A stretch of DNA of 64,000 nucleotides. Source: Chryseobacterium artocarpi. GTDB lineage: Bacteria > Bacteroidota > Bacteroidia > Flavobacteriales > Weeksellaceae. The first letter of the stretch is position 1. Every line of letters starts with the position of its first letter. Shown here in pieces: positions 23,047-38,300 of this stretch. Location of the stretch: assembly GCF_001684975.1 (NCBI RefSeq), contig NZ_MAYH01000023.1, positions 186,001-250,000 of the forward strand, in the 5' to 3' direction. A model generated the notes under the pieces. That model searched no databases, was not told the origin of the DNA, and saw only the letters and a program-made list of their open reading frames with translations. The position numbers and the translations under genes are program-made.

Positions 23047-26000
23047 ATGAAAAAGTATCCAATTCCTGTGAATGAAGAAGAGAGAATTAAGAAACTGGAG
23101 TATTTTGATCTTTTAAATCTTGAAAAAGATCCCCAGTTAGACATCTTTGCAGAAACAGCATGCTTGGTGACAGACTGTCCTGCATCGCTTATTGCTATGA
23201 TGGAAAGCGAAACCCAGACCATCCAAAGCTGTGTGGGACTTGCCCTTGATTTTGTAGACAGAAAAAGCACAGTATGCCAATATTCTATTGCAAGTGGGGA
23301 TATTCTAATTATCAATGATACGCTATTAGATGAAAGATCATCTGATAATCCACTTATTCTGGCTGGTGGGATCCGGTTTTATGCAGGAATACCTCTTATT
23401 GATGATGAAGGATTCGTATTAGGAACCATCTGTGTTATCGATTATAAACCTAAAACAATCACAGACGAGCAGATTTCAACCCTAAAAAAAATAGGAGAGG
23501 CAATCACAAAAGTCCTGATGGGAAAAAGGAAAAATATTGAGGCTGAGTATTTTCAACAAACTTTTACCATCTCCAATAACCTGATCTGTGTTCTGGATAA
23601 AAATTTTTTACTGAAAGAAATTAATCCGGCTTTTGAAAATGCCTTTCAAATGGAAAAGGGTAAGATTCTTAACCAGAATTTTATGGATCTGATAGGAAAT
23701 CATAATTCTCAACTCCAATTACTGTCCAAAAACCTTTCCAATACGGATGAAGAAGTAACATTTACTACATCAACAAACATAGATAATACCCAAACTATCA
23801 TTATTGAATGGTATTTAAAACTCAATCAAAATCATTCAGAGATCTTTTGTTTCGGAATTAATATCACCCATCGCATTGAAGAAAAACTTAAACTGGAAAG
23901 TTCTGAACGTCGCTTCAGAAGCTTTTTCGAAAATGCCATAGGTTTGATGAGTATGCATGATATGAGAGGAAATATCATTGCAGTCAACGAAAAAGGTAGG
24001 GAAACCTTGCAATATTCTGCTGAAGAGGTAGAAAGATTGAACCTAAAGGACCTTGTTCCTCAAAAAAATTGGACTCTCCTTGAGCAATATCTCGAAAGAA
24101 TCAACAAAAATCAGGAAGATTTCGGAACCATGATCCTGAAAACAAAAGGAGGTGAAGAAATGATCTGGATGTATCACAATCTTGTGGAGATCAATAAAGA
24201 AGGGAACCCTTATGTTGTGAGTACTGCACTGAATGTTACTGAAAGAATAACTTTGGAAAAAGATCTTGTTCATACAAAAAAGATGCTGGAGCAAACAAGT
24301 GCTGTTGCCCAGGTGGGAGGATGGGAGGTCAACCTGAAAAACAACACCGTTTTTTGGTCACAGTCTACCAGGGAAATTCATAAAATAGATAGAAATTTCC
24401 AGCCTGATTTTGAAAATGCACTGGGTTTTTACAGTGAAAAAAGCCGTGAAAAGCTGGAAGGTTTATTTGAAAAGGCTGTAAAAGAAGGTGTTCCTTACGA
24501 TGAAGAATTACAGCTTATACAAAATGACGGCGTGATGATTTGGGTAAGGGTAAAAGGCATACCGGAATTTGAAGACGGCGTATGCACAAGGGTTTACGGA
24601 ATTATTCAGAATATTGATACCTTCAAAAAAATCTATCTGGAACTGGCCAAAAAAGAGGCTATGCTGCAGTCTTTTGTAAAATATGTACCTTCTACGGTAG
24701 CCATGTTTGATAAAGATCTTAATTATCTTTCTGTAAGCAGAAGCTGGAAAGATGAGTTTCAGATGAACGACATCAGGCTTATTGGTGAAAATATATTTAA
24801 GATTTCACCTAATGTACCGGATGAAAGAATAAAAATATATCAGGATGCACTGGCAGGAAAGGCCTACAAAAATGAAGACATGGCCATCGAAGTTCCGGGT
24901 AAAGGAATTATTCAGCATTACAGCGTAGAGGTTACACCATGGTATCTTTCCAGTAATATCATAGGCGGGATTATTGTTTCTGCACAGAATATTACAGCCT
25001 CTGTGAAAATCAATAAAGAACTGAAAAATGCCAAGAAAATGGCAGATATTGCGAGCAAGGCAAAATCTGAATTCTTAGCCAATATGAGCCATGAAATTCG
25101 GACTCCTCTAAATGGTGTTATCGGTTTCTCTGATCTTCTTTTGAAAACTCCATTGAATGATATACAGACTCAATACCTCAATTATATCAATGAATCAGGA
25201 GAGAATTTATTGAATATCATCAACGATATCCTTGATTTTTCTAAGGTAGAATCTGGAAAAATGGATCTTCTCATTGAGAAATCTAATATTTATGACATGG
25301 TAAGTCAGGTGATCAATGTCATCCTTTACCAGTCGCAGAAAAAAAATATAGAATTACTGTTGAATATAGAACAGGGGCTTCCTGAAACCATTTGGCTGGA
25401 TGAATCAAGGTTGAAACAGATTTTAATAAACCTCCTTGGAAATGCAGTGAAATTTACAGAACAGGGAGAAATAGAACTTAAAGTAGAACAACTGAATCTG
25501 GACGGTAAGAATATCAAATTAAGATTTTCCGTAAGAGATACGGGAATTGGTATTCCAAAGGAAAAACAACAGCATATTTTCAATGCCTTTACCCAGGAAA
25601 ACAGTTCTATTAGCAAACGATATGGAGGAACAGGTCTCGGATTGACCATTTCCAATAATATCCTGAAATATATGGGAAGCAGCCTGTCATTGACGAGCGA
25701 ACTACAGAAAGGATCTGTTTTCTATTTTGACATAGAGGTTCCTTATGAAACTTCTGAGAACCATAAGGATGAAGACCTGAAAATAAATAACGTCCTTATT
25801 GTAGATGATAATGAAGCGAACAGGATTATTATTCAGCACATGCTTGCCTATAAAAATATAGACTCAAAGCTTGCCGCCAATGGAATGGAAGCGCTACAGA
25901 TACTGCTTGCAGGAGAACGTTTTGATGTCATTCTGATGGATTATCATATGCCTGTTATTTCCGGGCTGGAAACGATAGAAAAAATCAAAGAGCTGTTCAA

Positions 26001-26955
26001 CAAACAAAATGAATCTTCTCCTCTGATTATTCTTCACACGTCTTCTGAGGAACACGATGTTATTAATTCTTTCCGCCAGGAAAACGATTCATATTTCCTG
26101 CTGAAGCCTATCAAGTCTGAAGAACTCTATAAAACATTAAGAAGAACGGTAAAAAATACTGACAAGGAGATAACCGCTATCACACAACCGGAAAAGGAAA
26201 CTTCCATGCTGATGCAGGCACCGAAGGTTTTACTCGTAGATGATAATCCGGTCAATATGGTTCTTAATCATAAAATGCTGCGTTCACTGGTTCCGGATGC
26301 ACAGCTTACAGAAGCTACGGATGGACTTCAGGCGGTTTTGCAGTGTAAAGAAAAAACATTCAATATCATTTTAATGGATGTTCAGATGCCGGTAATGGAT
26401 GGTCTTGAAGCTACCAAACAAATCCGCTTACTCCCGGAATATTCCAATGTTCCGATTATTGGGGTAACGGCAGGTAATGTTCTGGGCGAGAAAGAAAAGT
26501 GTCTGGATTCCGGGATGAATGACTTCCTGCCTAAACCTTTAAGACAGGCAGATCTGCTGGAGATGCTTAAAAAGTATATCATTAACGAAAACAATAACGC
26601 AGCTGAAGATTCTGCCCATAAGGAAAATTATCTTGATATAAATCTACTGAATGAACAAATAGGTGATGACGATGAGGATTTCAGAAAAATATTTTTGAAC
26701 CTTGTAATAGATCAACTTACTCAGGCGGAAGAAAATATCAGAAAAAGCACAGCAGAAAAAGAAAGTGCTGATCTGAAATTGATTCTTCACAAGCTCAAAG
26801 GAACGGCAGGAACAGCAGGATTGGTGAAGCTTTCGGAATGTACTGCCAACTGGGAAAATAAAGCAGATCCTGACATGGATTTTGTTTCCATGGAAGAAGA
26901 AATTATCCACGAGATAACAACAGGATTACAATTAATTAAAAATCTAATACAATAA
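23047..26955 (+). CDS. GAF/multi-PAS hybrid sensor histidine kinase with two receivers and Hpt
   Basis: A 1302-residue soluble kinase. In order: GAF (about 15-160), four PAS/PAC units (about 165-660), HisKA with H682 in ANMSHEIRTPLNG, HATPase (about 785-900, DTGIGIPKEKQ and GGTGLGL), receiver 1 with D965 (ILMDYHMP), receiver 2 with D1111 (ILMDVQMP) and a C-terminal Hpt domain with H1248 (ILHKLKGTAGTAG). No membrane helix is visible, so it senses cytoplasmic signals. It leads an operon with a lone receiver, a HEAT protein and a polysaccharide synthase; the Hpt could pass phosphate to the lone receiver 12 bp downstream. Confidence 0.95.
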   Translation: MKKYPIPVNEEERIKKLEYFDLLNLEKDPQLDIFAETACLVTDCPASLIAMMESETQTIQSCVGLALDFVDRKSTVCQYSIASGDILIINDTLLDERSSDNPLILAGGIRFYAGIPLIDDEGFVLGTICVIDYKPKTITDEQISTLKKIGEAITKVLMGKRKNIEAEYFQQTFTISNNLICVLDKNFLLKEINPAFENAFQMEKGKILNQNFMDLIGNHNSQLQLLSKNLSNTDEEVTFTTSTNIDNTQTIIIEWYLKLNQNHSEIFCFGINITHRIEEKLKLESSERRFRSFFENAIGLMSMHDMRGNIIAVNEKGRETLQYSAEEVERLNLKDLVPQKNWTLLEQYLERINKNQEDFGTMILKTKGGEEMIWMYHNLVEINKEGNPYVVSTALNVTERITLEKDLVHTKKMLEQTSAVAQVGGWEVNLKNNTVFWSQSTREIHKIDRNFQPDFENALGFYSEKSREKLEGLFEKAVKEGVPYDEELQLIQNDGVMIWVRVKGIPEFEDGVCTRVYGIIQNIDTFKKIYLELAKKEAMLQSFVKYVPSTVAMFDKDLNYLSVSRSWKDEFQMNDIRLIGENIFKISPNVPDERIKIYQDALAGKAYKNEDMAIEVPGKGIIQHYSVEVTPWYLSSNIIGGIIVSAQNITASVKINKELKNAKKMADIASKAKSEFLANMSHEIRTPLNGVIGFSDLLLKTPLNDIQTQYLNYINESGENLLNIINDILDFSKVESGKMDLLIEKSNIYDMVSQVINVILYQSQKKNIELLLNIEQGLPETIWLDESRLKQILINLLGNAVKFTEQGEIELKVEQLNLDGKNIKLRFSVRDTGIGIPKEKQQHIFNAFTQENSSISKRYGGTGLGLTISNNILKYMGSSLSLTSELQKGSVFYFDIEVPYETSENHKDEDLKINNVLIVDDNEANRIIIQHMLAYKNIDSKLAANGMEALQILLAGERFDVILMDYHMPVISGLETIEKIKELFNKQNESSPLIILHTSSEEHDVINSFRQENDSYFLLKPIKSEELYKTLRRTVKNTDKEITAITQPEKETSMLMQAPKVLLVDDNPVNMVLNHKMLRSLVPDAQLTEATDGLQAVLQCKEKTFNIILMDVQMPVMDGLEATKQIRLLPEYSNVPIIGVTAGNVLGEKEKCLDSGMNDFLPKPLRQADLLEMLKKYIINENNNAAEDSAHKENYLDINLLNEQIGDDDEDFRKIFLNLVIDQLTQAEENIRKSTAEKESADLKLILHKLKGTAGTAGLVKLSECTANWENKADPDMDFVSMEEEIIHEITTGLQLIKNLIQ

Positions 26956-26967
26956 AAAACTAAAATT

Positions 26968-27324
26968 ATGCTGATTCTAATCGCCGAAGACGACGAACTG
27001 ATTCTAAAAACGATTGAACATAAATTATTAAAAGAAGGACACGAGGTGATCCTGACCCGAAACGGGAAAGACGCTATCGAAACCCTTAAAACCAAAGAGG
27101 TAGACCTGGCCATCACAGATATTATGATGCCGTTTGCCTCAGGAATTGAAATACTTTCAGCCATTCAAAGCATGGGTAAGCAGATACCGGTAATCATGCT
27201 TTCCAGTATGGGGCAGGAAGAAGTAGTACTGAATGCTTTTGACCTCGGAGCAGCCGATTTTATTGTGAAGCCATTCAGCCCCAATGAATTGATATTAAGA
27301 ATAAAAAGATTTTCTTCAAAATAA
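26968..27324 (+). CDS. Stand-alone response-regulator receiver
   Basis: A 118-residue CheY-like receiver with acidic pair E7-D8-D9 (IAEDDE), phospho-acceptor D51 (AITDIMMP), switch S (MLSSMG) and K in VKPFSP. No output domain exists, so it works by protein contact or as a phosphate shuttle. It sits directly after the Hpt-ending hybrid kinase and before the HEAT and GT2 genes (12 and 9 bp spacings), which suggests that it carries the signal to the synthase complex. Confidence 0.93.
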   Translation: MLILIAEDDELILKTIEHKLLKEGHEVILTRNGKDAIETLKTKEVDLAITDIMMPFASGIEILSAIQSMGKQIPVIMLSSMGQEEVVLNAFDLGAADFIVKPFSPNELILRIKRFSSK

Positions 27325-27333
27325 ACTAAAGCC

Positions 27334-28401
27334 ATGTTTCTCACCACTTCTGTACATTTTCTTTTTCTAGTTTTCCTGGGAATGCTATCCTTAGTACTGT
27401 TACTGATTATCGGTGTACTTATTTATGGCTTTTATCAGTACAGAGAATCTGTTCAGATCTTCAGATGGTCTGAAGTGATCAATAAAAAAATCTCGGAAGT
27501 GATTGTGTACGATGAGGAAGAAATGTCTGCGGATACTAGCTTTTCAGCGGCTTCCGGCAATCCTTTATTCAGAAACCTATTCCTTCAGAAACTGGCAGAA
27601 TCTGAGAAAAAATTTTCCGGGGCAGCACAAAATAAACTTAAAGACCTATTTCAGGAGTATGGTCTTCAGGAAGAAGCATTGAAAAAACTCAATCAAAAGA
27701 AAGAACACATCATTGCAGGAGGAATACAGGAGCTTACAGCGATGCAAGTGGAAGAAGCATTGCCAAAAATTTCTACATTTTTAGCCCATCCTTCAGCTCA
27801 GGTGTATCAGGAGGCACAGTATGCGATGGTAAATTTTAAAGGATTCGAAGGTCTTCATTTCCTGAACAGTATTTCCTCCAGAATATCAGAATGGCAGCAG
27901 CTTCGTCTGCTTATTTCGATCACCCGCATTCCTGAGAACTCAGAGGACAGTATTAAAAGTTGGATGGAAAGTTCTAATGATTCCGTAGTCATTTTTACCC
28001 TTAAACTTTTAAGAAAATTCCAGATATTATCTCTGTATCCTGTAGTAACTGATTTATTGGATCATCCTGCTGTTGACGTAAGAGTACAAGCAGTACAAAC
28101 TTTATTATCATTGGAAAATTCTTCCACCATTGAACATCTTATGGGAATATATTCAGATCAACCGGTTGAAGTGCAGAAAGAGATGCTGAAAGTCATGAAA
28201 AAGTCAAAAGACCAATGCAGTACAGATTTTCTGAAAAATCAATTATTGAACAATGGTGATTCAGGGATAAAAGTTCATGCTGCAGAAGCTTTGTGTGCTT
28301 TGAACCAACAAAAATACCTGACAGAAGTATCTCAAAAAGAAACCTCTTCTGAAGAACTCATTCAAATTATTAAATACGCATTACAGGAAAAAGTATGTTA
28401 G
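27334..28401 (+). CDS. Membrane-anchored HEAT-repeat protein
   Basis: A 355-residue protein with one N-terminal membrane helix (about 8-35) and a cytoplasmic alpha-helical solenoid; HEAT-like repeats are clear from about residue 135 onwards (EEALPKISTFLAHPSAQVYQEAQYAM, TDLLDHPAVDVRVQAVQTLLS, IKVHAAEALCALN, each given in part). Such proteins are scaffolds. Its gene overlaps the GT2 synthase gene by 7 bp, implying coupled translation and a physical complex. It probably links the receiver to the synthase (inference). Confidence 0.82.
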   Translation: MFLTTSVHFLFLVFLGMLSLVLLLIIGVLIYGFYQYRESVQIFRWSEVINKKISEVIVYDEEEMSADTSFSAASGNPLFRNLFLQKLAESEKKFSGAAQNKLKDLFQEYGLQEEALKKLNQKKEHIIAGGIQELTAMQVEEALPKISTFLAHPSAQVYQEAQYAMVNFKGFEGLHFLNSISSRISEWQQLRLLISITRIPENSEDSIKSWMESSNDSVVIFTLKLLRKFQILSLYPVVTDLLDHPAVDVRVQAVQTLLSLENSSTIEHLMGIYSDQPVEVQKEMLKVMKKSKDQCSTDFLKNQLLNNGDSGIKVHAAEALCALNQQKYLTEVSQKETSSEELIQIIKYALQEKVC

Positions 28402-31400
28402 AATTCTCACACATCATCTATGAAGTTGTTATCTGGCTGTTTTTGGTTTACGGAACAGCAGTAACTCTTATCTATGGCTGGATAGGAATTTATGCGCTTG
28501 GTGCTGTATTGCGTTATAAAAAAGAAAATACATTTACAGATTACAGCATCATTGCGGCAAATCCCAATGCGCCGGTATTCAGCGTTATTGCTCCGGCATA
28601 TAATGAAGGAATGACCATTGTGGAAAATGTACGCTCCCTCTTATCCCTTTACTATCATAACCTGGAAATTATCATTGTGAATGACGGAAGTAAGGATGAT
28701 TCTATTCAGAAGCTGATCGAAGCATACGAACTTGAGTCTGTAGCTTATTTTATTCAGGGAAAAATAGAAACCAATGCGGTAAGAGGAGTTTATAAAAGTA
28801 AAAATCCGGCGTTTAAAAAACTGATTGTTGTTGATAAAGAAAATGGAGGAAAGGCAGATGCTTTAAATGTCGGTGTCAATATTTCTTCCGGTGAATATCT
28901 GGTCTGCATTGATGTTGACTGTATTCTTGAGCAGGATTCGATTTTAAAACTAGCAAAACCAATGCTGGAACAAACCGACAAAAAGTTCATTGCATGCGGT
29001 GGAGTCATTCGTCTGGCTAACAATTGTGTCATCGAAAATGGAAAAATTGTAAGTGTCAATATGCCGAAAACTCTTTTGGGAAGAACACAGGCATTGGAGT
29101 ATATAAGAGCTTTTGTATTGGGGCGTATGGCATGGTCCAGAGCTTCAGGATTGATTCTCATCTCCGGTGCTTTCGGAGTATTTGACAGAAAAATTGTACT
29201 GGCATGCGGCGGTTATGATAAAAACACAGTGGGAGAGGACATGGAGCTGGTGGTAAGAATGAGAAAGTATATGGAGGAAAAAAATGAACCTTATGAAGTA
29301 CTCACCATTCCGGATCCTCTATGCTGGACTGAAGTTCCCGAATCCAAAGATATTCTCAGAAAACAAAGAAACAGATGGATGCGCGGTACCATGGAAACCC
29401 TATGGAAACACCGCAAAATGATGTTCAATCCGAAGTATAAAAAACTGGGAATGATCAGTCTTCCCTATTGGTTCTTTTTCGAATTTCTGGGTCCGCTTAT
29501 CGAATTTTCAGGATATATTATCTTTATCATCTTTTTAGTTCTGGGAATTATCAACTGGCCGTTCTTTATGGTACTGTTTGCCCTCGTTATTTCAATGGGA
29601 TTCCTCTATTCTATTTACGCAATACTGGTGGATCTGGTAAGTCATCAGGTGTATACCAAAAGAAAAGACTTTCTTAAATTAATTTTTACAGCTTTTTCCG
29701 AGCCTTTTTATTTTCATCCAATTGTGGTAAAAGCAGGGGTTAATGGGTTTATAGATTATTTCAAAAAATCCCACGGCTGGGGCGAAATGACAAGACAGGG
29801 TTTTAATCAAAGCACACAACATTTGCCTCTGAAAGAAAGAATATACGCTATACTTCAGGCAGGGCTCAAAAAGTGGGGAATGTTGGCGTTGGTGTTCTTT
29901 GCCTTATTTTTAATAGGAGTCATCGCAGAATCATTACGGTATCAATATACCTTTCCTAAATTTGAAACATCAGCCATTATTGGTCATCTTTTCTTTGAAA
30001 ATATTGTATTTGCACTTCAACTGACATTCTGGGTTGGAATTTTATATCTGATCATTAATTTTATCAAAGAAGGCTGGGCAAGAATCCTGGGAATGCTAAC
30101 CCTGGTGATTGTAGCAGTTACTCAATATATTTTATTCCTTTATTTTTCTGAAAGCCGTAACGTACTTGGGGCGGACATTTTATACTACAGTAAAGAGGAG
30201 ATGAAGCAGATTTTGCAGGCAAGTGGAATGCTTAATTTTAAAAACTTTGCTTTACTGGGGATTTTAATAACAGGTTCACTTGTTCCGTTATGGATTGCAG
30301 GTAAAACAGCTTTAAAATCAATCTATCCGGCAATAGTACTATTCATTTTTGGTTTGGCAGCATTCTTTATTCCTTCCAATATAATAGGAGGGAAAGCTCT
30401 GAGTTCTGAGAGTGAATTTAAGCAAAATGCTTCAAAAAGTAAATGGGCTTATTTCTTTAAATCCAATGAAGACAATTTCATAAGTGATCACCCGGAACTG
30501 AATGACCTGCTGAGTGGGAACGATGATTTTACTGCCAATGCAGAAATGATCGATAAAAACTTTCCGTTCTGGAGAAAAGAAAATACCTCGGATTTCCTGG
30601 GATCTTATATGAATACATCAGAAAAGGTTCCTAATCTTGTTTTTCTTGTGATGGAAGGTTTCGGACATGCCTACACATCTCCGAAAGGATATATCGGTAA
30701 TTTTACCCCTTATCTTGATTCTTTATCCAATAAAGGGTTGTATTGGGAAAACAGTTTAAGCTCAGCAGGAAGAACATTTGGAGCATTGCCATCATTAACA
30801 GGATCACTTCCTTTCGGAAAGAACGGCTTCCTTGAAATAGAAAAAACACCGGAGAATTTCAACCTTTATAATATTCTGAAGGCGAATGGTTTTGAAACAG
30901 GATTTTATTACGGAGGTCATGTATCATTTGACCGCTATCGTGAGTTTCTGAAATATAGTGGGGTAGATCATATTGTAGATGAAGCTTCCTTCAGTAGTCC
31001 TTACCGTAAGCTTCCAGCCAACAACGGAGAAAGCTGGGGATATGAAGATCAGGCTGTTTTCAGTAAAATGCTGCAGCAGCAAAAACCACAGAATCAGCCG
31101 TATTTCAATATGATACTTACGCTTTCAACACACAATCCTTTTTTAATAAACAATAAGGATTATTATGAAAAGCTGTACAACCAAAGACTTAACTCCGGGA
31201 TTTTAACTCCGGAACAGAAAAAATGGGCAATTGCTCAAAAAGATCAACTCATCTCGGTATTGAATGCTGATGATGCTATAAAAGGATTTTTTGAAAATTA
31301 CAGCAAACGTCCGGATTTCAAAAATACCATTTTCGTTATTACAGGAGATCACAGTATGCCTGAAATTACCTTAGAATCTAAAATTGACAGGTTCCATGTG

Positions 31401-31832
31401 CCCTTATTAATTTATTCACCCTTATTAAAAGAATCAAAACGTTTTCACAAAACAGTAAGTCATTTTGATATTGCGCCTTCTATTTTAGCGTACTACAGAA
31501 ATAATTATAAAATTACTACCCCTTCTACGGTAACATGGGTTGGGAGAGGTTTCTTAGCAGATTCTGAAATCAGTAATGCGGGAATCCCTATGATGCAAAG
31601 TAAAAACCAGCTTATTGATTTTGTCTCTGAGAAGTATTATATTCATGACGGACAGCTTTTCACGCTTAAAGACATGCAGGAAGATGCTTCTAATGATGCT
31701 TCAGCCATGAGTAAAATCAACGGCAGGTTCAATCAGTATAAAAGCATGAATGCTCAGTTTTATTCCACGAAAAAACTAATGCCGGATTCAGTAATGATCA
31801 ATTTTAAGAAAAAAACAAAGTCAAAGTTTTAA
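28395..31832 (+). CDS. Processive GT2 synthase fused to an LtaS/sulfatase-like domain
   Basis: A 1145-residue membrane protein. The N-terminal half is a processive GT2 (cellulose/chitin synthase type): helix about 9-40, D97 (VNDGSK), DxD 173-175 (CIDVDC), E281-D282, and Q324-R-N-R-W328, followed by membrane helices (355-430 and several between 490 and 685). The C-terminal 400 residues form an alkaline-phosphatase-superfamily domain like LTA synthase: E754 (VMEGFGH), candidate nucleophile T794 (AGRTFGALPS), and D985-H986 (TGDHSMP). A GT2 plus LtaS-type fusion could polymerise a glycan and decorate it with a phospho-alcohol group. Product and donor are unknown. It ends 4 bp inside the converging yaiO-like gene. 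Confidence 0.88.
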   Translation: MLEFSHIIYEVVIWLFLVYGTAVTLIYGWIGIYALGAVLRYKKENTFTDYSIIAANPNAPVFSVIAPAYNEGMTIVENVRSLLSLYYHNLEIIIVNDGSKDDSIQKLIEAYELESVAYFIQGKIETNAVRGVYKSKNPAFKKLIVVDKENGGKADALNVGVNISSGEYLVCIDVDCILEQDSILKLAKPMLEQTDKKFIACGGVIRLANNCVIENGKIVSVNMPKTLLGRTQALEYIRAFVLGRMAWSRASGLILISGAFGVFDRKIVLACGGYDKNTVGEDMELVVRMRKYMEEKNEPYEVLTIPDPLCWTEVPESKDILRKQRNRWMRGTMETLWKHRKMMFNPKYKKLGMISLPYWFFFEFLGPLIEFSGYIIFIIFLVLGIINWPFFMVLFALVISMGFLYSIYAILVDLVSHQVYTKRKDFLKLIFTAFSEPFYFHPIVVKAGVNGFIDYFKKSHGWGEMTRQGFNQSTQHLPLKERIYAILQAGLKKWGMLALVFFALFLIGVIAESLRYQYTFPKFETSAIIGHLFFENIVFALQLTFWVGILYLIINFIKEGWARILGMLTLVIVAVTQYILFLYFSESRNVLGADILYYSKEEMKQILQASGMLNFKNFALLGILITGSLVPLWIAGKTALKSIYPAIVLFIFGLAAFFIPSNIIGGKALSSESEFKQNASKSKWAYFFKSNEDNFISDHPELNDLLSGNDDFTANAEMIDKNFPFWRKENTSDFLGSYMNTSEKVPNLVFLVMEGFGHAYTSPKGYIGNFTPYLDSLSNKGLYWENSLSSAGRTFGALPSLTGSLPFGKNGFLEIEKTPENFNLYNILKANGFETGFYYGGHVSFDRYREFLKYSGVDHIVDEASFSSPYRKLPANNGESWGYEDQAVFSKMLQQQKPQNQPYFNMILTLSTHNPFLINNKDYYEKLYNQRLNSGILTPEQKKWAIAQKDQLISVLNADDAIKGFFENYSKRPDFKNTIFVITGDHSMPEITLESKIDRFHVPLLIYSPLLKESKRFHKTVSHFDIAPSILAYYRNNYKITTPSTVTWVGRGFLADSEISNAGIPMMQSKNQLIDFVSEKYYIHDGQLFTLKDMQEDASNDASAMSKINGRFNQYKSMNAQFYSTKKLMPDSVMINFKKKTKSKF

Positions 31833-33064
31833 AACTTTCGGGTATAGCCTAAAGTAACATCAAACTGATTTCCTTTCTCACCCGGACGGAATTCCTGATT
31901 GTAATACATTGTTCCCACGGAAAAAAGATTGACGGAACGATAAGAAAAATTATACTCAGCACCTACTTTAAAGGTTTTAAGCTTGAAAGTTTCATTTCCC
32001 AGAAGGTTATTTCGGAATTCTTCCGGGCTTATCCCGGTTCCGATCTGAAAAGCAAAATAGTCCTGAGCTCCTTTAGTATAATAACGAACCGTTCCTGTAT
32101 AAGAATGGGAAATGTTTTTGCTGTCAGGCGTTATATAAGTACGAAGATTGAACCAGAAATTTTTATAATACTTTCCTACAGCAGCAGTATACATCCAGAT
32201 ATTATTGCTGAAGTGAAGCTGACGGTAGCCTAATTCTGCCTCAAAACTGTGAGGAAGATTGGCATTCAGGGAAACTCCGGTGCGGTATTTCGGAAACAGA
32301 CCTACATCATCAGAATACCCTCCACCTACATATAGATAGAACATTTTGGAAAGTCTTGGATACGCTTCCAGCTCAATCTGTGTACCGCTTTGTGCAAACT
32401 TGTTCGCATAGTTACCACGAAGAATTACAGAACCAATAGGAGTAATCCTTTTGTAGCTTACCCCTACGATATGCCAGTCATTATCAAACTGTTTGTCAAA
32501 ATGGGAATAATTGTAAATAATTCCAACAGCATTTTTAGAAGACAAATCCTTGATCCTTACTGCAAGAGCCCTTGCTTCTGTGTTTTTGGGATGAATAGAT
32601 AAAAGAGTTGTTACTGCTTTGTCAGCTTCCTCATAGCTATCCATTCCAAAATATACTTTTGCCTTTAGCAGTAGCAAAGCCTCCGATTTAGAATGATAGG
32701 AAAGCCCTTTATCTATAATTTCGATAGCCTTTTTATTCTGATCATTCCAGTATTCCAATGAAGCATACGCCAGAAAATAATCTTCATCCTGAACATCTCT
32801 TTTTGCGAGTTCTTCAAACACGGTTCTTGCTGCAGGCAGATCCTTATTCCAGGTATATAGCCTTCCGAGAAAAACTGATATATCGGTATAATTGGGAGCT
32901 TTTTCCAATGCCTCTTTTGCCAGTGCAATAGATGTAATATAATCTTTCTGCTCGAAAGCCGTGGTACGGGCTTTAACAAACAATTCATCAGCAGTAAGAT
33001 TCTGCTGGCTATACATAGTAAGTGGAAAAAGTAATACTAATAAAAAGGTAGGATATCTTTTCAT
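31829..33064 (-). CDS. YaiO-family outer-membrane beta-barrel with TPR domain
   Basis: A 411-residue protein with a signal peptide (cleavage near residue 19, YSQ before QNLT), a periplasmic TPR region (about 25-165, EALEKAPNYTDISVFLGRLYTWNKD in two overlapping helices) and a C-terminal antiparallel barrel (about 175-411) with alternating strands, ending in GYTRKF with terminal F, as outer-membrane proteins do. YaiO proteins are often encoded beside GT2 synthases and are thought to help polysaccharide leave the cell. It converges on the GT2-LtaS fusion, overlapping by 4 bp, so the pair forms an export module. Confidence 0.87.
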   Translation of the reverse strand: MKRYPTFLLVLLFPLTMYSQQNLTADELFVKARTTAFEQKDYITSIALAKEALEKAPNYTDISVFLGRLYTWNKDLPAARTVFEELAKRDVQDEDYFLAYASLEYWNDQNKKAIEIIDKGLSYHSKSEALLLLKAKVYFGMDSYEEADKAVTTLLSIHPKNTEARALAVRIKDLSSKNAVGIIYNYSHFDKQFDNDWHIVGVSYKRITPIGSVILRGNYANKFAQSGTQIELEAYPRLSKMFYLYVGGGYSDDVGLFPKYRTGVSLNANLPHSFEAELGYRQLHFSNNIWMYTAAVGKYYKNFWFNLRTYITPDSKNISHSYTGTVRYYTKGAQDYFAFQIGTGISPEEFRNNLLGNETFKLKTFKVGAEYNFSYRSVNLFSVGTMYYNQEFRPGEKGNQFDVTLGYTRKF

Positions 33065-33583: not shown

Positions 33584-33597
33584 TATATTTGTATACT
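33584..33597 (+). promoter_or_regulatory. Promoter/operator box of the first marR-like gene
   Basis: GTATATTTGTATAC (33583-33596) is a near-palindrome (GTATA / TATAC) containing the -7 match TATATTTG (33584-33591). The second marR-like gene has GTATTTTTGTAAAC at the same distance from its start, and the photolyase gene has GTATATTTGTAT. Autoregulation is likely. Confidence 0.6.
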
Positions 33598-33609
33598 AAT
33601 TTGATTGAT

Positions 33610-34263
33610 GTGAATTTTGATCTTCTAAAATCAATGGTTGACCTCGTTCAGCAATTTATAGAGCAGAATGAAGGAAAATGTATATATAGCAACGATCTGC
33701 AGGGGTTTACAGAATGGCTAAATGTTTCACATAAGAATGATTCTATAGAAGAACCTGATTGGTTCGGAAAAGAATTAGGAAGAAGCTCTGATAGTATCAT
33801 CAATACTTTATTGATAAGAATGGGGAGGTATGCAAAAATCTACTCCCGGTCAATTGGTAATTCCGTTTTTTCAAGCCAAGATGATTTTATTTATCTGATA
33901 AGCCTGAAAACCATGGGAGCTATGACAAAAATGGAGCTCATAAGACATAATGTAACTGAGAAGTCTTCAGGTATGTTGATTATTAACCGTTTAATCCGTA
34001 ATGGCTGGGCTGAGCAGACTATTTGTTTAAAAGATAAAAGAAAGAAATATATTCAGATAACTGAGAACGGGCTAATTGTACTGGAGCAGCACAGAGAGGA
34101 GATCCGTAAAGCTTCAAGAGTGGTAGTGGGAAATCTGAACCCCTCTGAACAAATGCTGCTCATCGCTATACTCTCTAAACTGGATGAATTTCATGATTCT
34201 TTTTATCGGTTGCATATGAATTCTAATGATTTGTTGGATGTTGTGTTTAAAAAATTGAATTAA
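33610..34263 (+). CDS. MarR-family regulator at the head of the carotenoid operon
   Basis: I choose the GTG at 33610 (MNFDLLKSMVDL, 217 residues): the earlier TTG at 33589 lies inside the promoter box, and alignment with the paralogue at 51022 (MNYTLIKDYIDL) starts at the same place. The winged HTH lies around residues 100-165 (TMGAMTKMELIRHNVTEKS and DKRKKYIQIT). It is 43 bp upstream of crtI on the same strand, so it probably controls pigment synthesis. The paralogue, about 17 kb away, follows photolyase and ferrochelatase. The ligand is unknown. Confidence 0.88.
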   Translation: MNFDLLKSMVDLVQQFIEQNEGKCIYSNDLQGFTEWLNVSHKNDSIEEPDWFGKELGRSSDSIINTLLIRMGRYAKIYSRSIGNSVFSSQDDFIYLISLKTMGAMTKMELIRHNVTEKSSGMLIINRLIRNGWAEQTICLKDKRKKYIQITENGLIVLEQHREEIRKASRVVVGNLNPSEQMLLIAILSKLDEFHDSFYRLHMNSNDLLDVVFKKLN

Positions 34264-34306: not shown

Positions 34307-35797
34307 ATGAATACTGGAAACGTAAGAAAGAAAATTGCTGTCATCGGTTCTGGATTTTCCGGGCTTTCTGCTGCTGCATATGCTGCAAAATCTGGAAATG
34401 AAGTACATGTATTTGAGAAGCATCAGCAGCCAGGAGGGCGGGCACGACAATTTAAGACAAAAGAAGGATATGTGTTCGATATGGGACCCAGCTGGTACTG
34501 GATGCCTGATATTATCGAAAGCTTTTTCAGTGATTTTGGCTATAAAGTGTCTGATTTCTTTAATCTTGTTTCTTTAGACCCTCAGTTTGAAATGGTTTTT
34601 TCAGAAGAAAAAATTTCAATTCCTGAAAAAAATGAAGGTATCCGTAAACTATTTGAAAAAATTGAACCCGGAGCAGCTAAAAAATATGACCAATTTATGC
34701 GTTCTGCTCAATTCAAGTATGAGGTGGGCATGAAAGACTTTGTAACAAAACCTTGTTATAACTGGCTGGAATTTGCTTCTTTAAAAATAGCTGGAAGTGC
34801 ACTGAAACTTGATCTTTTAAGTAATTTCAGAAAATACGTTTCAGGTTATTTTACTGATCCCAAACTAAAATCTCTGATGGAATTTCCGGTTATATTTCTT
34901 GGTGCTTCCCCGCAACGTATTCCGGCTCTTTACAGTTTGATGAATTACGGAGGTTATGTTTTGGGAACAAAATATCCTATGGGAGGTTTTTATCAGCTTG
35001 TTCTTGCAATGAAGGAAGTGGCACAAAGACAAGGGGTAACCTTTCATTTTAATCACGAAGTACAGGGAATCAATACAAAAAATGGAACGATATCTTCCAT
35101 AACAGTAAATGATGAAACGTATGAATTTGATGCAGTAATCGCCTCATCAGATTATTATCATACGGAAACATTACTCCCAAAATCTCTTAGAAACTACAAC
35201 AAAGTATATTGGAAAACCAGAACCTTTGCTCCCTCTTGTCTTATTTATTATCTGGGGATCAGGGGAAAAATTGCTCATTTAAAACATCATACCCTGTTCT
35301 TTGAAAATAATCTGGACAATCATATAGATTGTATTTATAAAAATAAGAAATGGCCTGCCAAACCTCTTTTTTATACCTGTAGCCCTTCTAAAACAGATCC
35401 GGAGGTAGCTCCAGAAGGTTGTGAGAATCTGTTTTTGTTATTACCTCTTGCAACTGGAATACATGATGAGGAATCCATCAGAGAAAAATATTTGATGGAA
35501 ATGCTTGAAAGAATTGAAAAGCATACCGGTGAAACTGATCTTATTTCCAGAATTGAATATAAAAGAAGCTATTGTGTAAGCGATTTTATTTCCGATTATA
35601 ATGCTTATGAGGGTAATGCCTACGGATTATCCAATACTTTATCACAGACAGCAGTTTTAAAGCCTAAGATCAAAAACAGAAAGCTCAGGAATCTTTTTTA
35701 TACTGGGCAGTTAACGGTTCCGGGACCTGGTGTTCCCCCGTCAATAATTTCCGGAAAAATTGTAGCGGGTGAAGTGAGTAAACTAAAAATAAAATAA
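34307..35797 (+). CDS. crtI: Phytoene desaturase
   Basis: A 496-residue flavoprotein with the N-terminal FAD motif G14-S-G-F-S-G19 and the dinucleotide follow-on FEKHQQPGGRARQF, then FDMGPSWYWMPD. The C-terminus has the CrtI hallmark YTGQLTVPGPGVPPSIISG. It introduces double bonds into phytoene to yield lycopene (in flavobacteria usually four steps), at the membrane. It is second in the operon, and its stop codon is one base before crtB. Confidence 0.95.
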   Translation: MNTGNVRKKIAVIGSGFSGLSAAAYAAKSGNEVHVFEKHQQPGGRARQFKTKEGYVFDMGPSWYWMPDIIESFFSDFGYKVSDFFNLVSLDPQFEMVFSEEKISIPEKNEGIRKLFEKIEPGAAKKYDQFMRSAQFKYEVGMKDFVTKPCYNWLEFASLKIAGSALKLDLLSNFRKYVSGYFTDPKLKSLMEFPVIFLGASPQRIPALYSLMNYGGYVLGTKYPMGGFYQLVLAMKEVAQRQGVTFHFNHEVQGINTKNGTISSITVNDETYEFDAVIASSDYYHTETLLPKSLRNYNKVYWKTRTFAPSCLIYYLGIRGKIAHLKHHTLFFENNLDNHIDCIYKNKKWPAKPLFYTCSPSKTDPEVAPEGCENLFLLLPLATGIHDEESIREKYLMEMLERIEKHTGETDLISRIEYKRSYCVSDFISDYNAYEGNAYGLSNTLSQTAVLKPKIKNRKLRNLFYTGQLTVPGPGVPPSIISGKIVAGEVSKLKIK

Positions 35798-35798
35798 T

Positions 35799-36635
35799 AT
35801 GAAAAAACTGTTTGATGAATTGTCTTACGAAGTCAGTAAGTACACTACGCAAAAATACAGTACCAGTTTTTCATTAGGAATACTGGCGTTGAAGCCTTCC
35901 ATCAGACCTGCAGTTTATGCTGTTTACGGGTATGTTCGTCTGGCGGATGAAATTGTAGATAGCTTTCATGGGTATGATAAAGAAAAGCTTCTGAAGAGAT
36001 TAAAGACTGAAACTTATGAGGCATTAGAAGATGGCATATCACTCAATCCTATTTTGCATTCATTTCAGGAAATAGTTCGGCAGTATGAGATTGACAGACA
36101 TCTGATTGATAAGTTTCTGCACAGCATGGAAATGGATCTTCATAAAATTGATTATAATTCCGAATTGTATAAAGAATATATCTATGGATCTGCGGAAGTG
36201 GTGGGACTGATGTGCCTGCAGATATTTACAGAAGGCAATAAACAGCAATATGAGAAGCTTAAACCGTTCGCGATGAAGTTGGGATCTGCTTTTCAAAAAG
36301 TTAATTTCTTACGGGATCTGAAGGATGATTATCAGATTTTAGGAAGGACCTACTTTCCATCTCTGAATATGTCAGTCTTTGATAATACAGTGAAAACCCG
36401 GATTGAAAAGGAGATTGATGAAGAATTCAAAGAAGCATTGCAGGGGATTAAAAAACTGCCGGGCTCATCCATTTTCGGAGTCTATCTTGCTTACAGGTAT
36501 TACCTTTCCCTTTTTGAAAAAATAAAGAAAACAAGTTCACAAAATATGCTTCAGCAAAGAATAAGAATTGCCAATTCGCAAAAGCTGCTGGTTGCATTCA
36601 AAAGCTATATCCGTTACAAATCTGCTTATTTCTAA
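35799..36635 (+). CDS. crtB: Phytoene synthase
   Basis: A 278-residue head-to-head prenyl synthase that joins two geranylgeranyl diphosphates into phytoene. The first acidic motif is D50-E-I-V-D54 (RLADEIVDSF), the second is DLKDD in FLRDLKDDYQILGRTYFP. The start TTSFSLGI-type segment (YSTSFSLGILAL) fits CrtB. It follows crtI after a single base, the tightest coupling in the operon. No GGPP synthase is in this window, so the substrate is supplied from elsewhere. Confidence 0.95.
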   Translation: MKKLFDELSYEVSKYTTQKYSTSFSLGILALKPSIRPAVYAVYGYVRLADEIVDSFHGYDKEKLLKRLKTETYEALEDGISLNPILHSFQEIVRQYEIDRHLIDKFLHSMEMDLHKIDYNSELYKEYIYGSAEVVGLMCLQIFTEGNKQQYEKLKPFAMKLGSAFQKVNFLRDLKDDYQILGRTYFPSLNMSVFDNTVKTRIEKEIDEEFKEALQGIKKLPGSSIFGVYLAYRYYLSLFEKIKKTSSQNMLQQRIRIANSQKLLVAFKSYIRYKSAYF

Positions 36636-36692
36636 CAGTAAATTCCGGGTTAAAAATGATTTTGTGTAATGTTTAACGATCAATAAAAATAA

Positions 36693-37160
36693 ATGATGTA
36701 CAGATTATACAGAGAGCAACAATTGAATTGCAGTATTGAAACAGCATGGGATTTTTTTTCATCTCCTCATAATTTATCGGAAATAACTCCTGAGAGTATG
36801 GGGTTTATAGTACTTTCCGATGTAAAGAATAAGCCTATTTTTAAAGGAATGGAAATAGATTACACAGTCTCTCCTTTGCTTGGAATTCCGTTGAAATGGA
36901 AGACCATTATAAGCCAGGTAAAAGATTATGAAAGTTTTACGGACCTTCAGAAAGAAGGTCCATACAAGTATTGGAATCATTTTCATGAATTTATTCCTAA
37001 TGAAAATGGAGTACTCATGAAAGATACGGTAGACTATGAACTTCCGCTAGGGATTTTAGGAAAAATAGCCCATCAGCTGTTTGTAAAAGAAAAGCTTAAA
37101 AGCATTTTTGATTTCAGATACAGGGTTTTAAATAATCTTTTTAATAATAAGCATAATTAA
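36693..37160 (+). CDS. SRPBCC/START-like protein in the carotenoid operon
   Basis: A 155-residue protein of the SRPBCC superfamily: SIETAWDFFSSPHNLSEITP at the start and DTVDYELPLGILGKIAHQLFV near the end are typical for ligand-binding SRPBCC/START-type folds found in carotenoid operons of Bacteroidota. It probably binds a hydrophobic pigment intermediate, but no catalytic residues can be named. It lies between crtB and crtZ with only one base to crtZ. Confidence 0.82.
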   Translation: MMYRLYREQQLNCSIETAWDFFSSPHNLSEITPESMGFIVLSDVKNKPIFKGMEIDYTVSPLLGIPLKWKTIISQVKDYESFTDLQKEGPYKYWNHFHEFIPNENGVLMKDTVDYELPLGILGKIAHQLFVKEKLKSIFDFRYRVLNNLFNNKHN

Positions 37161-37161
37161 A

Positions 37162-37614
37162 ATGAATGTTTTGATCGTTTTAGGTGTATTTATTTCCATG
37201 GAAGGGGCTACGTGGCTGATCCACCGGTATATTATGCACGGCTTTCTGTGGATTCTGCACCGGGACCATCATGATCATAGCCACAACGGGAAACTTGAAA
37301 GAAATGATTGGTTCTTTTTCATTTTTGCAACTCCGGCTATTGCTTTATTATATCTGGGAGTACAACAGAATTTTAGTTATTGGTTTTTTACCGGTCTTGG
37401 AATAAGCCTTTACGGAATGTCCTATTTTTTTGTACACGATATTTTTATCCATCAGAGGGTAAAGATTTTTACCCAAACAAAGAATCCGTATTTACTTGCC
37501 ATCAGACGTGCTCATAAACAACATCACAAACATCTGGGCAAAGAAGATGGGGAATGTTTTGGTTTTTTGTGGGTTCCTGTTAAATATTTTAAAATGTATT
37601 TTAATAAAAAATGA
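37162..37614 (+). CDS. crtZ: Beta-carotene hydroxylase
   Basis: A 150-residue membrane diiron hydroxylase. All four histidine motifs are visible: H21-x4-H26 (HRYIMH), H33-x2-HH (HRDHH), H-x4-H (HDIFIH) and HKQHH near residue 125. It adds hydroxyl groups to both beta-ionone rings, giving zeaxanthin, a standard yellow flavobacterial pigment. The stop overlaps the start of the lycopene cyclase gene by 4 bp (ATGA). Confidence 0.95.
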   Translation: MNVLIVLGVFISMEGATWLIHRYIMHGFLWILHRDHHDHSHNGKLERNDWFFFIFATPAIALLYLGVQQNFSYWFFTGLGISLYGMSYFFVHDIFIHQRVKIFTQTKNPYLLAIRRAHKQHHKHLGKEDGECFGFLWVPVKYFKMYFNKK

Positions 37615-38300
37615 TGCCTTATACTTACATATTGATTAACTTTTTTACTGTAATCATCTGCTTTTTGGCTTCTTTCGACGGAAGAATACAGTTTAATAGA
37701 CTTTTTGGGAAATTTCTGCTCTCATCCACTATTGTCGCAATTCCTTTTATTGCCTGGGATATTTGGTTCACGGCTAAAGGAGTCTGGTGGTTTGATCTAA
37801 AGTATACCTTAGGATTTAAAATAGCGGGGCTTCCCATAGAGGAGTGGCTGTTTTTTTACTGTATTCCTTTCGCCTGTGTTTTTACTTATTATTGCCTGGA
37901 AAAATATTTTACTCTTAGATGGACTGATGGTTTAAACAATCTCATTGTATTTACGTCTTTCATTGTTCTTGGAGTTGTAGGGCTTCTGTACAATGAAAGA
38001 ATATATACTTTGTTGACGGTAATGGTAACGATAGTTACACTTGGCTACCTGCATTTTATCGCTCAAAAAGAATGGATAGGGAAAGCCAGTTTTGTGTATC
38101 TGGTTCTGATGCCCGGCTTTTTTGCAGTGAATGGAATCTTGACGGGCTCTTTAATTCCATCGCCGGTTGTTAATTATAATCCTGGTGACTTTTTAGGAAT
38201 TAGAATGGGAACAATCCCTTTAGAAGATGCTGTTTATGGCTATAGCCAGTTTTTACTCAATATTTATTTCTTTAAAAAAATAACTGAAAATGAAAAATAG
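37611..38300 (+). CDS. crtYcd: Lycopene cyclase, CrtYc/CrtYd heterodimer type (fused)
   Basis: A 229-residue polytopic protein with about seven hydrophobic segments and two copies of the lycopene-cyclase domain motif: IAGLPIEEWLFFYCIPF in the first half and GIRMGTIPLEDAVYGYS in the second, where PxE(E/D) is the conserved acidic core. It converts lycopene to beta-carotene. This membrane type is typical for Bacteroidota, actinobacteria and archaea, in contrast to the flavin-dependent CrtY. It starts with a 4-bp overlap to crtZ. Confidence 0.92.
   Translation: MMPYTYILINFFTVIICFLASFDGRIQFNRLFGKFLLSSTIVAIPFIAWDIWFTAKGVWWFDLKYTLGFKIAGLPIEEWLFFYCIPFACVFTYYCLEKYFTLRWTDGLNNLIVFTSFIVLGVVGLLYNERIYTLLTVMVTIVTLGYLHFIAQKEWIGKASFVYLVLMPGFFAVNGILTGSLIPSPVVNYNPGDFLGIRMGTIPLEDAVYGYSQFLLNIYFFKKITENEK

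Follow-up and report, generated by a model that had tools for sequence, protein, structure and literature searches.

Exopolysaccharide (EPS) secretion in Bacteroidota has mostly been described through Wzx/Wzy-type pathways. Among related enzymes described elsewhere, OpgH is the family 2 glycosyltransferase (GT2) that acts as glucan synthase of the osmoregulated periplasmic glucans (OPG), and OpgH and OpgB are unfused and are not known to work with a dedicated outer-membrane exporter. LtaS carries five membrane helices before its catalytic domain, GacH resembles LtaS and adds glycerophosphate to a glycan, and PbgA, which is not known to be fused to a GT2 enzyme, has lost most of its active site. 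Both LtaS and OpgB transfer phosphoglycerol, which they take from phosphatidylglycerol. The synthase-dependent export scheme described in PMC9601211 consists of a synthase, a tetratricopeptide-repeat (TPR) protein, and an outer-membrane barrel, and the passages describing it do not mention YaiO. This study concerns a gene of Chryseobacterium artocarpi in which a GT2 synthase and an LtaS/OpgB-type enzyme are joined in one protein, together with the cassette of genes around it; the gene lies in a window of 64,000 nucleotides (nt), namely the whole stretch of DNA analysed, on contig NZ_MAYH01000023.1 (GCF_001684975.1).

The fusion is a real, conserved, and mechanistically readable protein, and it probably belongs to a synthase-dependent system for exopolysaccharide in which a periplasmic phospho-alcohol transferase is covalently attached to the synthase. 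The cassette is widespread in Bacteroidota and apparently undescribed: no description of the fusion or the cassette was recognised among the papers listed by searches of the open-access literature or in passages of PMC9601211 and PMC12419801. An earlier reading made from the sequence only (the sequence-only reading) had known of no functional description of the module.

The fusion protein

The sequence-only reading had proposed a single 1145-residue protein with a GT2 half and an LtaS/sulfatase-like half, and this proposal stood, as the open reading frame (ORF) is intact and both halves have Pfam and fold matches. The GT2 half was matched by PF00535 at 2.2e-20 and, over residues 61-331, by PF13641, and the C half by PF00884 ("Sulfatase") over residues 746-1032 at 3e-34. 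Other members of the genus also carry full-length fusions, with 61-95% identity to the window protein, and Chryseobacterium supplies the nearest named relatives. Therefore, the fusion is a real ORF and no chance frame. A misassembly, or two genes that merely stand side by side by chance, was rejected because the same fusion is present in many independent assemblies. The antisense of the gene is stop-ridden in the one frame translated, and a single antisense ORF of at least 100 aa (123 aa, 28790-29161) lies inside it.

The residue counts given below come from the best 80 of 583 loci (the named loci), a set biased to the fusion in which absence of a gene means that it was not found within the available flanks. 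The counts cover all 80 GT2 halves and all 73 LtaS halves, and the alignments cover 34 of 43 fused and 22 of 30 split forms, near-duplicates or contig-end pieces having been dropped. The features of the fusion gene are as follows.

28395..31832, + strand: GT2 synthase - LtaS/OpgB-type phosphotransferase fusion, 1145 aa, ATG start, intact ORF
28575..29387, + strand: GT2 catalytic domain, residues 61-331, cytoplasmic (PF13641; hyaluronan-synthase fold over 11-477)
28683..28685, + strand: GT2 motif D97, identical in 80/80
28911..28919, + strand: GT2 motif D173-V-D175, D173 and D175 identical in 80/80
29235..29240, + strand: GT2 motif E281-D282, identical in 80/80
29364..29378, + strand: GT2 processivity motif QRNRW 324-328, Q324, R327, and W328 identical in 80/80
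29862..30386, + strand: five-helix LtaS-type membrane segment, residues about 490-664 (five hydrophobic segments, inside the PbgA match)
30630..31490, + strand: extracytoplasmic alkaline-phosphatase-superfamily (PF00884) domain, residues 746-1032 (Pfam, profile, and fold)
30654..30656, + strand: E754, predicted metal ligand (E 70/73, D 3/73)
30774..30776, + strand: T794, predicted nucleophile (T 68, S 3, N 1, A 1 of 73)
31131..31133, + strand: H913, predicted active-site histidine, kept in 70/73
31347..31352, + strand: D985-H986, predicted metal ligands (D 69/73, H 72/73)

An AlphaFold model of the window protein, for which 34 other fusions were aligned to it, reached a mean predicted local distance difference test score (pLDDT) of 84.1 and a predicted template-modelling score (pTM) of 0.60, and was compared with known structures by Foldseek and VIA-align. 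This structure prediction, which the sequence-only reading had suggested as a check, gave a hyaluronan-synthase fold for one half and an LtaS-type fold for the other. Residues 11-477, including the membrane part, were superposed on hyaluronan synthase 8snc with Z 25.7 (392 aligned, 3.2 Å). The window protein has both marks of a processive GT2 enzyme, namely the D/DxD/ED/QxxRW residues, which had been claimed from the letters and are invariant in the 80 named homologues, and a catalytic domain with a transmembrane channel in a fold of the hyaluronan synthase/BcsA type. By hydropathy, one helix precedes the GT domain (7-25) and the others follow it at 375-412 (two), 496-514, 536-554, 564-582, 618-636, and 646-664; a weaker hydrophobic stretch inside the GT domain (253-271) was taken as core. 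There are seven crossings after the cytoplasmic GT domain, and therefore the C-terminal domain is predicted to be periplasmic.

The model for PgaC/IcaA, the synthase of poly-N-acetylglucosamine (PNAG), scored 121.3 bits (TIGR03937), below its cut-off of 422.3, and on this score PNAG synthase proper was rejected as an equivalog. The same genome has a second synthase of 796 aa (L002:46-2436, on contig 12 of G000), which looks like a fusion of a polysaccharide deacetylase and a PgaC-like GT2 and looks closer to PgaB/PgaC than the window fusion does.

In the C half, residues from about 700-720 to 1139 matched LtaS, LtaP, and VP1736 with Z 33 to 38 (LtaS/LtaP Z 33-34), and sulfatase structures matched at lower Z than this group. 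Residues 475-1125 matched full-length PbgA, five helices included, with Z 30.6 and a root mean square deviation (rmsd) of 16.5 Å, a high value that probably comes from domain movement. Since this match spans the membrane part, the C half corresponds to an entire LtaS-type protein rather than a soluble domain alone, with the architecture of LtaS/OpgB (MdoB), five membrane helices followed by an extracytoplasmic domain of alkaline-phosphatase fold. In the model, E754 follows the strand 747-753, T794 opens the helix 794-803, and D985-H986 follow the strand 978-984, which we take to be the usual active-site places in LtaS and its superfamily. The C-half profile aligned the same residues with the Glu, Thr, and Asp-His of Bacillus subtilis LtaS 2w8d.

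Nearly all homologues have, like the window protein, the Glu, Thr/Ser, and Asp-His residues. The site named by the sequence-only reading (E754, T794, D985-H986) is present and conserved, with T or S at position 794 in 71/73, and H913 should be added to it. At D985, the 73 homologues have D in 69, S in 3, and a gap in 1; the gap, which also takes in H986, belongs to L120 at a contig end. Among the other positions, R793 is kept in 70, W881 in 70, R999 in 72, H1001 in 64, and H1023 in 72 of the 73. Judged by fold and residue placement, the lack of a metal site, which the sequence-only reading had named as an outcome that would speak against it, was not observed: the LtaS, LtaP, and PbgA folds match, and the predicted ligand residues stand in superfamily positions.

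The best matches of the C-half profile in the PDB were VP1736, LtaS, and LtaP, and among Escherichia coli proteins the profile found OpgB at 44.7 bits (3e-15), with EptB, OpgE, and BcsG all below 0 bits. At the level of sequence profiles, the C domain is on the OpgB/LtaS branch and not on the EptB/OpgE/BcsG branch, and a phosphoethanolamine transferase of the latter type is unsupported. The NCBIfam equivalog models scored below their cut-offs (LtaS 40.5 bits against 970; OpgB 36.5 bits against 574), and these scores mark a predicted membership of the same superfamily, that is, kinship without identity of enzyme function. Formylglycine sulfatases have the nucleophile motif C/S-x-P-x-R. The window protein has GRTFGALPS there, the nucleophile position is never Cys in the 73 homologues, and neither CxPxR nor SxPxR occurred at this position among the 23 homologues compared; a formylglycine-type sulfatase was rejected.

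Conservation and spread of the cassette

The conserved cassette consists of a response regulator, a HEAT protein, the GT2 enzyme, in many loci the LtaS half, and the YaiO TPR/outer-membrane barrel. In the 80 named loci, HEAT was found in 79, the receiver in 78, YaiO in 71, and the LtaS half in 73 (43 fused, 30 separate), and among the 70 loci flanked on each side by 4 kb or more, the numbers were 70, 70, 65, and 63, respectively. The HEAT gene is directly upstream of GT2 (gap -60 to 200 nt) in 78/80. The 30 separate LtaS genes all share the strand of GT2, and 29 lie at most 30 nt from it. In 21/73 loci, LtaS continues into a TPR stretch at its C-terminus (19 split, 2 fused). The search for the fusion across Bacteroidota, also suggested by the sequence-only reading, recovered fused, adjacent-gene, and LtaS-less forms; far from the halves being separate and unrelated in all relatives, 43 loci are fused and the separate LtaS genes mostly adjoin GT2.

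In a less biased sample of 395 genomes drawn evenly across Bacteroidota, with window-protein matches taken at 1e-60, GT2 was found in 94 (every such match includes GT2), YaiO in 93, and both in 92, a co-occurrence with a hypergeometric probability of 7e-87, shared ancestry being ignored. Counted per genus, the window protein was matched in 49/170 and YaiO in 48/170. GT2 lies within 10 kb of 84 of the 97 YaiO genes and within 3 kb of 68. Because two candidates per genome were scored, the LtaS counts in this sample are lower bounds; for the 26 LtaS-only matches, GT2 was within 10 kb in 22 cases and YaiO in 24, and no LtaS half was found in 57 of the 94 GT2 genomes, a number that is an upper bound. 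Some GT2 genomes without an LtaS match carry compact YaiO-HEAT-GT2 sets, seen on short flanks only. As LtaS-less cassettes exist, HEAT, GT2, and YaiO make up the core and LtaS is accessory.

Natural variants

On a GT2 tree of 81 rows, made by a quick method and with three long end branches, the states fused, split, and without LtaS need 13 changes, and the starred branches alone force at least 6 changes of the fused state. On this tree, the fused and split states interchange repeatedly. Chryseobacterium, Kaistella, and Myroides are nested inside the Sphingobacterium rows (95*), which suggests transfer between orders. In the genus of the window, 9 of the 23 sampled relatives matched, 8 of them at full length. 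The LtaS half was not found in 7/80 named loci, and genome G008, of the same genus, has a 701-aa protein (L017:1501-3606) that comprises GT2 and five helices and then stops, without the catalytic domain; YaiO follows 102 nt after this truncated protein, and its receiver, HEAT, and YaiO neighbours were matched by BLAST.

The residues E754, R793, W881, H913, and D985 are all replaced in the same three rows, whose altered LtaS genes are the following.

L118:11414-13792: Zeaxanthinibacter
L122:3636-6008: Muriicola
L127:11411-13771: Robiginitalea

These loci keep the neighbouring genes and have otherwise complete-looking cassettes, and their LtaS halves look like pseudoenzymes held in place. There is a natural series of fused, split, LtaS-less, catalytic-domain-missing, and pseudoenzyme forms.

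Two further observations concern the proteins around the GT2 gene. Long HEAT proteins (694-1187 aa versus about 355) occupy the same operon position in marine Flavobacteriaceae loci (L103-L106, L108, L110, L111, L118, L122, L123, L126, and L127). Beside 16/73 LtaS-bearing and 0/7 LtaS-less cassettes stands a gene of a conserved family, whose proteins are about 390 aa long and begin with a single hydrophobic helix (L129:9537-10700 is one of these 16 loci, all among the 80); no trustworthy Pfam match was obtained in any of its 16 members, and no tblastn match in the window. Its model (pLDDT 76) resembled GH42 beta-galactosidases, amidotransferase/ThuA-like proteins, and Agd3 only weakly, with TM-scores by query length of 0.35 or less.

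Neighbouring genes in the window

The sequence-only reading had described a compact module with a YaiO-type barrel, a HEAT protein, and relay proteins, and these neighbours are present as it said.

23047..26955, + strand: hybrid histidine kinase with GAF, PAS, HisKA, HATPase, two receivers, and Hpt (histidine-kinase-like ORF in 56/80 loci)
26968..27324, + strand: stand-alone CheY-like receiver (receiver in 78/80 named loci)
27334..28401, + strand: HEAT-repeat protein with one N-terminal membrane helix, 7-nt overlap with the fusion start
31829..33064, - strand: YaiO, with a signal-peptide-like N-terminus, TPRs, and an outer-membrane beta-barrel (PF19413 2.1e-67, TPR_19)

The YaiO gene is convergent with the fusion gene, with a 4-nt overlap. 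A synthase, a periplasmic TPR, and an outer-membrane barrel are encoded together, which is the gene set of synthase-dependent EPS secretion. Farther along, carotenoid genes occupy 34307-38297 of the window (phytoene desaturase, CrtID, above the NCBIfam cut-off; phytoene synthase; lycopene cyclase), and a weak MarR-type regulator match lies just upstream of them at 33589-34263.

Proposed mechanism and alternative explanations

The analysis establishes which domains the protein has, the class of their folds, how well its residues are conserved, and which genes accompany it, and we infer polymer formation, transfer to the glycan, export, and switching. The GT2 half, which is hyaluronan-synthase/PgaC-like, would polymerise a glycan in the cytoplasm and itself form the membrane channel through which the chain is threaded. 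On the other side of the inner membrane, facing the periplasm, the LtaS/OpgB-type half may take a head group from a membrane phospholipid via a Thr-linked intermediate at the metal site and place it on the emerging chain, which the YaiO TPR/beta-barrel would then carry over the outer membrane. A relay of kinase and receiver, together with the membrane-anchored HEAT protein, may switch the synthase through protein contact. An order of polymerising and then decorating would fit the predicted topology, with the GT inside and the phosphotransferase outside. A core exporter with an accessory decorator would fit the GT2-YaiO pairing, the interchange of fused and split forms, the LtaS-less cassettes, and the G008 form.

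As a first guess from the family, the head group would be phosphoglycerol, with phosphoethanolamine or another lipid head group as the alternative. Phosphoglycerol and phosphoethanolamine had both been named in the sequence-only reading. The OpgB/LtaS branch points to phosphoglycerol; profile likeness to EptB/OpgE/BcsG is absent, and the cut-off for PgsA was not reached. The genome has only two CDP-alcohol transferases (PF01066), one PssA-like and one nearest to inositol-phosphate synthases, both below the NCBIfam cut-offs. A stand-alone LtaS-type gene (L004:1207-3135) adjoins a PssA-like phosphatidylserine synthase gene (L004:3225-3938) on contig 34 of G000.

Several results weigh against this account. 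YaiO was not found nearby in 5 of the 70 loci whose flanks reach 4 kb or more on each side, and 13 of the 97 YaiO genes are without a GT2 match within 10 kb, some perhaps because of contig ends. No gene in the genome exceeded the PgsA cut-off (TIGR00560), which sits poorly with phosphatidylglycerol as the donor, although 7 of the 13 matching control genomes were also below and phosphatidylglycerol may still serve. The main result against a purely catalytic role is the pseudoenzyme-like rows: the same three rows lost the site and kept the genes, and therefore a non-catalytic role is indicated at least there.

These three loci, where the gene is kept with its catalytic residues gone, also favour the view that the LtaS half serves the synthase mainly in a structural or regulatory way, gating it or sensing lipid with no modification of the glycan. 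PbgA/YejM is such a pseudoenzyme, acting in lipopolysaccharide control, and the full-length PbgA match, membrane part included (Z 30.6, rmsd 16.5 Å), leans the same way. We nevertheless consider this view unlikely, as, in fused and split forms alike, E754 and H913 are kept in 70/73 and D985 in 69 (a contig end leaves one gap), and as the missing catalytic domain in G008 and the 7/80 loci in which no LtaS half was found argue that it is no required structural part.

It is very unlikely that the LtaS half builds a teichoic-acid-like poly-phosphoglycerol of its own, with GT2 making the glycan or glycolipid that primes it, even with true lipoteichoic acid (LTA) synthases and an LTA primase among the nearest solved relatives. 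The GT2 half has the processive fold and QxxRW, whereas a glycolipid primer would call for an enzyme of the single-addition type; the C-half profile also finds OpgB, which is a single-unit transferase; and YaiO is paired with GT2 even in cassettes in which no LtaS was found. A glucan that stays in the periplasm, as in the E. coli OPG, where a GT2 synthase (OpgH) is likewise paired with an OpgB-type enzyme, is highly improbable, as a protein with TPRs and an outer-membrane barrel co-occurs almost one to one with GT2 and no OpgG family occurs among the 18 Pfam-scanned window proteins, no OpgG search having been made in the rest of the genome.

The synthase-dependent system with an attached transferase may be part of a wider picture, which we put forward tentatively and hold at somewhat less than an even chance. 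In it, HEAT, GT2, and YaiO would form an EPS secretion class of the Bacteroidota's own, switched by a phosphorelay, and its synthase would have acquired an LtaS-type enzyme on several occasions; the chain would then be phospho-decorated while leaving the membrane and become a charged, teichoic-acid-like surface glycan of Gram-negative cells; in some marine Flavobacteriaceae, the enzyme would have become a PbgA-like pseudoenzyme regulating the synthase. The GT2 and YaiO pair (92/395 genomes) would be a second, simpler export route in Bacteroidota, and in some lineages one protein would both build and chemically mark the chain.

Comparison with known systems

The PgaABCD (PNAG), Bcs cellulose, and alginate systems resemble the cassette in having a translocating GT2 synthase, a periplasmic TPR, and an outer-membrane beta-barrel, although the barrel is PgaA or BcsC in the first two and of YaiO type here. 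Bcs, which is regulated through cyclic di-GMP, also carries an annotated phosphoethanolamine transferase, BcsG; its modifier is of the BcsG branch, whereas the one here is of the LtaS/OpgB branch and fused to the synthase, and the operon here includes a receiver and a HEAT protein.

The OpgH/OpgB pair likewise combines a GT2 glucan synthase with a phosphoglycerol transferase, the OpgB found by the C-half profile at 3e-15. LtaS and LtaP share the extracytoplasmic domain of alkaline-phosphatase fold with the Glu/Thr/Asp-His site; the present enzymes differ from these and from GacH in the attachment to a glycan synthase in the fused forms and in the C-terminal TPR extension in 21/73. PbgA/YejM is alike in the whole architecture of the C half, and most of the active site is gone from three of the present homologues, as it is from PbgA.

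In the E. coli yaiO-yaiX-yaiP-yaiS cluster, a YaiO barrel gene stands near the GT2 gene yaiP, whose product has 26% identity to the GT2 half of the window protein over 261 aligned positions; E. coli YaiO and the window YaiO have no significant pairwise similarity and share the Pfam family only. This cluster also has modifier genes (acyltransferase fragments and a putative deacetylase), with yaiX interrupted by IS2 in MG1655, but no LtaS-type, HEAT, or receiver gene is annotated there. Based on this cluster, the pairing of YaiO and GT2 with interchangeable modifier genes extends beyond Bacteroidota.

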